Origin: an uncultured Verrucomicrobiota bacterium
GTDB taxonomy: Bacteria; Verrucomicrobiota; Verrucomicrobiia; Limisphaerales; UBA9464
Reading direction: 5' to 3'
Assembly: GCA_903939515.1 (NCBI GenBank)
Contig: CAJAHH010000010.1
Span: 1 to 64,000, forward strand
DNA: 64,000 nt
Below are positions 48,822-50,813 of the stretch, one piece after another. The translations under genes were made by a program, and so were the position numbers. The number at the start of each line of letters is the position of its first letter. Positions within the stretch are counted from its first letter, which is position 1. The notes below the pieces were generated by a model. That model made no database searches. It was not told where the DNA came from and was given only the letters and a program-made list of their open reading frames with translations.

Positions 48822-50813
48822 TCACTGATACGTGCGCCGCAGGTGGCTGGGCAGCACGTTCAGCTCAGCCCGGTATTTGGCGACCGTGCGCCGGGCGATC
48901 ATGACGTTCTTCTCCTTGAGCTTGTTGACCAACTGATCGTCGGAGAGAGGCTTGGCCGGGTTTTCACCGGCGATGAGCTCGGCCAGAATGTTCTTCACCG
49001 AGGTGTTGGACACCGTCTGACCGTCGGCCGTCGCCACACCGGAGGTGAAGAAGAACTTCATTTCGAAGATCCCCTGAGGCGTGCGCATGAACTTGCCGGA
49101 GACCGCTCGACTCACGGTCGTCTCATGGACACCCACCACCTCGGCCACCATGACCATGGTCATGGGCTTGAGGTGCTCGACTCCCTTTTCCATGAAATCC
49201 CGCTGACGCTTCACGATCTCGCGGCCGATGCTCAAAATGGTGCTCTGGCGCTGGTTGAGACTCTTGATGAGAAACTTGCCGGCTTTGATCTTGTCGCGCA
49301 CGTATTCGCGGACCTCGGCGGAAGTTTCCGCCTGAGCCAGCAAATCCTTGTAGGTGCTGCTAATGCGCAACTGGGGCATGAACTCATCCTTGCCAGCCAC
49401 TTCGTACTCCACCTTTTGACGCGTCTCAGTAATCGGTAAAAAATCGCACAGAAAGATTCGGTTGAGATCGGCCACCAAGACCTCAGTCGCACCGCCACCA
49501 ACCTTCATTTCCTCGGATGACAACTGTTCGGCACAGGCCTTGAGGCGTTTGTCGGCGGCCGAGCTGAAGGAGGCCTTCCCCAAGAACCGGTGGTACAGGC
49601 GTTCGTCACCCCGCACGATGCGGGTGAGGTCTTCGGCGATGCCGGAAAGGAGCGACTCCGGCACGATCTTACCCCCCGACGCCAACCAACGGCTCCTGCC
49701 CTCGATCGCTGCTAGCAGCCGATGTTCCGCGGCAAGGTCGCCAGTGAACCGCCACTGCCGGAGGCCCTCGCGGGTTTGCATCGAGAGTCGGTAGCGGAGG
49801 TGAGTGATCACCTCGTCGTCTTCATCGGGATCGCTCAGGATCTCCGCCAGCGAGGGCGGATCTTCGATGTCCGTCGCCTTGATGTCCGGGCTGGGATCAT
49901 CGACCACGCGCCGGATGACCTCCAACTCTGGCACCACGTATTGTTCAGGATCGCGGGAAAAATCGGAACCCGGCCTGGGATCGAGCCGGGCGATCCGTCC
50001 CGCGGCCTCCTGGGCCTCGGACGGGGTGATTCCCAACTGGCGGGCGATCTCGGGAAATCGCCGTTTACCCAACTCCTCCATGTAGTCGCGGAGGATGAGG
50101 TATTCCAGATCGTTGGTCCGGCCTGCTCGTTCCATCTGGAGCATCAGGCACTCCCGAAGGTCTCGAGCCCCGACACCGGGGGGTTCGAAGGATTGAAGGA
50201 CCGACAGCACTTCCAGAATTCGCTCGGTCGAGAAGCCTGTGGAGAAGGTGAGTTCTTCGGGTTGGGCCGTCAGATAACCCCGGTCGTCGATGTTTCCGAT
50301 GAGTAATTCGGAGACTTCACGCTGTTCGGGGGTCAACTCGGTGAAGCGCACCTGCTCCAGCAAGTACTCCTGCAAGGATTGGCCCGTGGTCAGGGAATCA
50401 AAGAGGTGCTGACGGCGCTCTTCATCCTCCTGGGTGACCTTGTTGACCGTGTTGTTTTGGGCGAAAACCTCGCGCCATTCCTCGTCCAGCTTGAGGAGCT
50501 TCTGGAGATCTTCAGAAAAACGATCGACCGGCTCGTCGTCGTGCTTTTCAAGCGCTGGATCAAACTGAACATCGAGCGGGGGCTCCGCGGGATCAGCGGC
50601 GGCCGCCTCGGCCTCGGCTTTGGCTTCCCGGGCCTCGACATCGATCTCAAGGGATCCGATCTCTTCCAGAACAGGGTTCAACTGGAGCTCTTGCTCCACC
50701 ATCGCCTTGAGCTCCAACACCGGCGCCTGCAGAAGCGCCAGCGAATGCTGGAGCTGCGGCGACAGCACCATCTGCTGGGAAAGCCGTTGGCTGAGTTGAA
50801 GTCCCGCGGACAT
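48822..50813 (-). CDS. rpoN: RNA polymerase sigma-54 factor RpoN with internal insertion
   Basis: 663 residues from the ATG at 50813 (MSAGLQLSQRLSQQMVLSPQ), much longer than the usual 430-500. Region I (LSQQMVLSPQLQHSLALLQA) and the acidic linker are normal. The core-binding domain starts DSLTTGQSLQEYLLEQVRFT. Around residues 303-467 a segment of about 160 residues (VIRRVVDDPSPDI onward) is inserted before the usual continuation EFMPQLRISSTYKDLLAQAE. The HTH (LKPMTMVMVAEVVGVHETTV) and RpoN box (ARRTVAKYRAELNVLPSHLR) are intact, so it should recognise -24/-12 promoters. In E. coli and many bacteria it serves nitrogen and flagellar genes; the targets here are unknown. Confidence 0.93.
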   Translation of the reverse strand: MSAGLQLSQRLSQQMVLSPQLQHSLALLQAPVLELKAMVEQELQLNPVLEEIGSLEIDVEAREAKAEAEAAAADPAEPPLDVQFDPALEKHDDEPVDRFSEDLQKLLKLDEEWREVFAQNNTVNKVTQEDEERRQHLFDSLTTGQSLQEYLLEQVRFTELTPEQREVSELLIGNIDDRGYLTAQPEELTFSTGFSTERILEVLSVLQSFEPPGVGARDLRECLMLQMERAGRTNDLEYLILRDYMEELGKRRFPEIARQLGITPSEAQEAAGRIARLDPRPGSDFSRDPEQYVVPELEVIRRVVDDPSPDIKATDIEDPPSLAEILSDPDEDDEVITHLRYRLSMQTREGLRQWRFTGDLAAEHRLLAAIEGRSRWLASGGKIVPESLLSGIAEDLTRIVRGDERLYHRFLGKASFSSAADKRLKACAEQLSSEEMKVGGGATEVLVADLNRIFLCDFLPITETRQKVEYEVAGKDEFMPQLRISSTYKDLLAQAETSAEVREYVRDKIKAGKFLIKSLNQRQSTILSIGREIVKRQRDFMEKGVEHLKPMTMVMVAEVVGVHETTVSRAVSGKFMRTPQGIFEMKFFFTSGVATADGQTVSNTSVKNILAELIAGENPAKPLSDDQLVNKLKEKNVMIARRTVAKYRAELNVLPSHLRRTYQ

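Follow-up and report, generated by a model that had tools for sequence, protein, structure and literature searches.

The sigma-54 factor (RpoN) encoded in the window, meaning the whole 64,000-nt stretch of DNA analysed here, carries an internal insert that is very probably a copy of an undescribed, self-folding, all-helical domain of about 116 amino acids, grafted in frame many times across the order. Judged by its sequence, this RpoN is an ordinary sigma-54 factor with what appears to be an old, diverged copy of the domain, and it is one host among many. Previously known in-frame coding inserts are short palindromes from a few lineages, whereas the present case seems to involve repeated grafting of an entire folded domain, reaching core cell-division and transcription proteins and most genera of the order, and the family databases searched do not contain it. 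It becomes possible to test by what route proteins gain new domains, which surfaces tolerate them, and whether a harmless encoded fold can allow selfish DNA to persist. It further means that a long RpoN in these bacteria need not imply new transcription control.

The sigma-54 factor and its insert

All three domains that define sigma-54/RpoN (TIGR02395; PF00309, PF04963, PF04552) are present and ordinary in the window protein (Table 1), and the ARRTVAKYR box lies near its C-terminus. The Sigma54_CBD family has one match in the whole genome, which is rpoN itself, ruling out a second RpoN paralogue. At least seven strong Sigma54_activat proteins are encoded in the genome, indicating that sigma-54 is in use. 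Unlike an ordinary sigma-54, the window RpoN bears a foreign domain on the hairpin of the connector between the core-binding domain (CBD) and the ELH.

With 663 aa, the protein exceeds its insert-free relatives (~499 aa) by a net ~164–165 residues. These relatives align normally to both flanks and have no counterpart of residues 303–467. The alignments thus bear out the sequence-only reading, which had described ~160 extra residues (49415–49907) as an internal insertion between two normal flanks and not as a fusion at one end. Between the CBD and the DNA-binding part (DBD), the window RpoN has no Pfam match. Aligned to E. coli chains (construct offset of 20 removed), the insert maps between E. 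coli RpoN residues ~281 and 292, and the CBD-to-ELH connector, which early structures resolved poorly, spans ~260–320 in E. coli numbering (PMC5505868). The insert therefore lies just beyond the core-binding module, yet within the C-terminal end of the Pfam CBD model. Its earlier placement in the core-binding region holds for the end of that model but not for the module, as the site is the tip of a surface beta-hairpin in the connector; by Pfam, neither the core-binding module nor region I is affected.

The insert measures ~140–170 aa across the genus, and alignments show that further length changes inside it are tolerated. Compared to the sister species, the window copy contains an additional in-frame insertion of net 22 aa (66 nt) nested inside the insert and restricted to the window's species; a search of the genome for a second copy of these 66 nt yielded none. 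A different insertion of ~68 aa is found at another site in RpoN of Verrucomicrobiia bacterium SKYB101 (L056:4001-5716), after RISNTYKELMSRSAV, and does not match the domain profile.

Table 1. Features of the rpoN gene and its insert (window positions).
Feature	Position	Strand	Basis
rpoN (sigma-54), single copy, 663 aa	48822..50813	-	TIGR02395, E 3.2e-116; ATG at 50813
Activator-interacting domain (region I), residues 7–51	50661..50795	-	Pfam PF00309
Core-binding domain, residues 141–301 (profile 6–162 of 185)	49911..50393	-	Pfam PF04963
DNA-binding part (ELH-HTH and RpoN box), residues 503–660	48834..49307	-	Pfam PF04552
Hairpin strand 1 (bears the insert), residues 297–306	49896..49925	-	AlphaFold model
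Hairpin strand 2, residues 465–474	49392..49421	-	AlphaFold model
Insert, residues 303–467, missing in insert-free RpoN	49413..49907	-	Alignments and empty-site comparison
Probable copy of the promiscuous helical domain, residues ~309–461	49431..49889	-	Profile-profile E 5.8e-15; HMM built without RpoN copies
C-terminal signature LNRIFLCDFLP (family consensus LNRLLLEDAYP), residues 450–460	49434..49466	-	
Nested stretch, window's species only, net 22 aa / 66 nt	49665..49739	-	Between two domain helices, low pLDDT

Distribution of the RpoN insert

The insert is present in all 19 genomes of the genus (some copies are broken by contig ends) and in one genome of a sister genus in the same family (G025). 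It is absent from 36 other relatives of the family and order that have both RpoN halves, and from homologues across the bacteria, so that a lineage-specific feature, the check proposed with the first description, is what was found. A contig or assembly error is ruled out, as the insert recurs in 19 genus genomes from independent projects.

Within the sister genus, the flanks of the G025 RpoN are 86.5% identical to those of the insert-free G031 (support 100/99) and only 66% identical to those of the window RpoN. The empty site is evident from the same pair, with AEG|EYQV in G031 and DEG[...]QYAV in G025, and the G025 insert is closer to copies in other proteins than to the RpoN inserts of the window's genus. 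These sequence relationships and the trees suggest two separate insertions into RpoN, one in the genus and one in G025, at the same hairpin turn; a single shared origin followed by losses was not rejected (AU test, p = 0.353).

Relative to the closest species (L003, L004, and L010), synonymous divergence is 0.42–0.46 in the insert, 0.10–0.15 in the CBD, and 0.05–0.24 in the ELH-DBD, a pattern that would fit a separate exchange of the insert. Three public MAGs titled Akkermansia muciniphila (L034, L042, and L043) bear an RpoN of the window's genus, and their names look wrong.

A portable domain in many proteins

A profile built from the RpoN inserts matched other proteins in the genomes of the family, and the same domain was seen inside BrkB/YihY, a UrtC-like permease, a PTS EIIC, a TraD-like coupling protein, and others. 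In the reverse direction, an HMM from 54 non-RpoN copies scored the 19 RpoN inserts at 23.5–82 bits, compared to at most 2.2 bits for insert-free RpoN and at most 9.3 bits for 3000 shuffled RpoN sequences. Profile-profile comparison (hhalign) of RpoN inserts with copies from other hosts gave a probability of 98.4% and an E-value of 5.8e-15. The RpoN inserts of the genus rank with the most diverged copies of the domain, and the nested insertion makes the window copy, taken alone, a weak match (23 bits). The window genome also has copies in a membrane/TPR protein (L265) and in a hypothetical protein of 456 aa (L263).

A search of 243 genomes of the order (103 genera), made with a profile of the copies in other hosts, detected the domain, which is ~115–116 aa in size, in 183 genomes and 88 genera at an E-value of 1e-6 or better. 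Many genomes have several copies, and the copy numbers are lower bounds (18 candidates scored per genome). Among the matches listed, all are stop-free and each lies within an open frame of at least 246 aa. In a phylum-wide sample, eight of 288 genomes matched at 1e-7, namely the window's own and seven others. Searches of Pfam and NCBIfam returned no family and PDB no sequence relative, and no account of such a domain in Verrucomicrobiota turned up in the literature searched. Annexin-like (E 0.013) and TetR-like (E 0.1) matches were weak and vanished with a wider profile.

The breadth of hosts bears directly on the proposal that the extra segment changes how sigma-54 contacts RNA polymerase or its activator. 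A regulatory domain specific to sigma-54 and altering contacts with RNA polymerase or enhancer-binding proteins would fit the retention of the insert throughout the genus and a sigma-54 that is in use. Nevertheless, this explanation is unlikely, as the same domain occurs in dozens of unrelated, mostly envelope proteins that have nothing to do with transcription, the segment is the least constrained part of RpoN (dN/dS 0.165) and tolerates internal length changes, and it leaves the core-binding module and region I unaffected. A new sigma-54-specific domain was accordingly dropped as the main reading once the profile matched unrelated hosts, and the proposed change of contacts is left unsupported; secondary effects of the insert on RNA polymerase or activator contacts may occur.

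Hosts and insertion sites

The 72 host ORFs examined fall into 41 unrelated clusters. The domain splits or abuts Pfam matches to BPD_transp_2, BrkB, SDF, MFS, AhpC-TSA, FTSW (FtsW/RodA), MurJ, PTS_EIIC, ABC_membrane, MlaD, Recombinase (serine recombinase), and Voltage_CLC (ClC). The interrupted genes include those for FtsW, MurJ, UrtC, DctA, MFS, PTS-EIIC, BrkB, ABC-exporter, ClC, and peroxiredoxin proteins, and relatives show clean empty sites. For UrtC, 16 genomes of the family read LLG|YAIN and five read LLG[~122 aa]YIVN; in-frame internal insertion with insert-free orthologues was thus found for both RpoN and UrtC. The position also varies within one host family, with early and late sites in BrkB and several loops in MFS proteins.

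Several hosts are of interest in their own right. A fluoride riboswitch (L182:4275-4361) lies near a peroxiredoxin-like gene bearing the domain. Two tandem copies lie at the N-terminus of an LptD/OstA-like protein from another class (L260:1-2382), and one copy is found in an LptF/G-like permease (L259). In almost all genomes of the family, the large membrane/TPR protein (L265; ORFs of ~1250–1350 aa) contains a partial copy of the domain, which seems to be an ancient insertion.

Membrane and secreted proteins make up most of the hosts, and RpoN is among the few that are clearly cytoplasmic. In 29 of the 43 hosts for which a crude predictor gives at least four membrane segments, the number of segments preceding the insertion is odd, and in several of the remaining 14, membrane segments seem to have been missed. 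This segment parity, as given by the crude predictor, suggests an extracytoplasmic position of the domain in most membrane hosts; a crude positive-inside count for the same 43 hosts was split 27 to 16.

Such a preference might be expected of an accessory domain selected for a single function, probably an extracytoplasmic one (tethering, oligomerization, or envelope recognition), which spread by ordinary recombination and horizontal transfer and of which RpoN holds a stray or co-opted copy. We regard this as a serious possibility, though one with less than even odds. The purifying selection and the conserved motif seen in all copies speak for it, together with the predominance of membrane or secreted hosts, the segment parity, and the presence of the domain in a phage-tail-like protein common with Streptomyces plasmids. 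The positive-inside count alone is divided, however, some hosts are clearly cytoplasmic (RpoN, a serine recombinase, and TraD-like coupling proteins), and the functions of the hosts have nothing evident in common.

Fold and selection

Structure prediction, one of the checks proposed with the first description of the insert, returned a separate domain: in the AlphaFold models, the hairpin bears a helical domain predicted with confidence. Modelled alone, a sister insert (pLDDT 88.6, pTM 0.81) has seven helices flanked by two paired strands, which prolong the hairpin of the host, and the whole-protein model agrees. Fold searches with the insert alone gave no significant match, the best Foldseek E-values being 2.8 in PDB and 1.7 in BFVD and the VIA-align Z-scores reaching at most 3.5, which is no demonstration of a new fold.

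Across the 72 copies, the entropy at the three codon positions is 1.37, 1.11, and 1.67 bits, indicating constraint at the protein level, and a motif is conserved in all domain copies. Within the RpoN of the genus, dN/dS is 0.165 for the insert compared to 0.026–0.049 for the other regions. Purifying selection on the insert is weaker than on the rest of RpoN, yet clear.

Together with the host range, these properties lead us back to repeated grafting and to how it may work. The domain would have been grafted in frame, on many separate occasions, into proteins unrelated to one another, at loops and hairpin turns. It may be tolerated because it folds by itself and has its ends close together, in RpoN on the two strands of one hairpin, and adjacent ends would allow the host protein still to fold. 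The RpoN copy would have entered the CBD-ELH connector at the turn of its hairpin and been retained, and it now appears to be a folded appendage that evolves ~3–6 times faster than other parts of sigma-54. We infer both the neutral grafting and the bias in topology from these patterns.

Mobility and comparison with known in-frame elements

Repeated grafting is supported by the unrelated hosts, the empty sites, the varied positions within a host family, and presence or absence between close relatives. Copies in different hosts of one genome share ~35% amino acid identity, and those in orthologous hosts up to 92%; at ~35% between hosts of one genome, no fresh transposition event is seen. Examination of the UrtC and RpoN junctions and repeat analysis identified no mobilizing enzyme, terminal repeat, or target-site duplication. 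Terminal inverted repeats showed no excess over the control, and the copies are old, so that short duplications would have decayed.

A segment that is in frame, has many hosts and sharp boundaries, and leaves its flanks undisrupted could also be a self-removing intervening sequence (an intein, intron, or translational bypass element), in which case mature RpoN would lack it. This is very improbable. The model is all-helical and not an intein Hint fold, no Pfam intein family matches, and the splice residues (Cys/Ser/Thr first, His-Asn last) are missing from a segment with the ends VVDD...TRQK. For group I and II introns, an Rfam search of seven loci gave nothing at the gathering score; no RNA-fold signal was detected against codon shuffles, and third codon positions are free.

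The best reading, drawn by analogy, is that of a promiscuous in-frame insertion domain, which may be likened to the rickettsial palindromic elements but is not a member of them. The elements of Rickettsia and Wolbachia are "selfish" in-frame coding inserts, described as palindromic and several codons long (PMC2996958). Like them, the domain is inserted in frame, at assorted positions, into unrelated genes including housekeeping genes, in non-structured host segments, and with a restricted lineage distribution (PMC2996958). In-frame insertion into unrelated genes at assorted positions was indeed observed here. Unlike them, the domain is folded, ~116 aa long, conserved as a protein, without palindromes or inverted ends, and found in another phylum; inverted-repeat arms (9.28) equalled those of codon-shuffled controls (9.25), so the palindromic character of the rickettsial elements was not found. 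PARCELs, amphipathic repeat coding elements, are similar in being a protein-coding module spread horizontally and within genomes, but they form tandem tracts with dyad symmetry, whereas the domain is mostly single-copy and lacks this symmetry (PMC2996958). A third parallel is the ShiLan-type insertion with a hidden HNH endonuclease, which is likewise in frame, is not recognizable as an intein or intron, and presumably leaves its host protein undisturbed (PMC11855218). That insertion is confined to one gene family, whereas the domain has many hosts and no conserved alternative frame. Alternative frames are open in only 1 to 20 of the 72 copies, revealing no conserved hidden ORF and arguing against a ShiLan-type hidden endonuclease in these copies.

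A bolder extension, which we put forward tentatively, is that the domain represents a class of mobile element with a benign protein cargo. In-frame DNA encoding a self-folding domain with adjacent ends could sit in essential FtsW, MurJ, and sigma-54 without breaking them, spread order-wide, and be exchanged via phage-tail-like and conjugation genes. Named phage records gave no match. The domain-bearing phage-tail-like protein is common to Verrucomicrobiota, an IMG/VR contig, and Streptomyces plasmids, showing that horizontal transfer of domain-bearing hosts occurs. In this contractile-injection/phage-tail-like protein (L300:2210-4804, L212, and L271), the domain is found at the same place in all cases.
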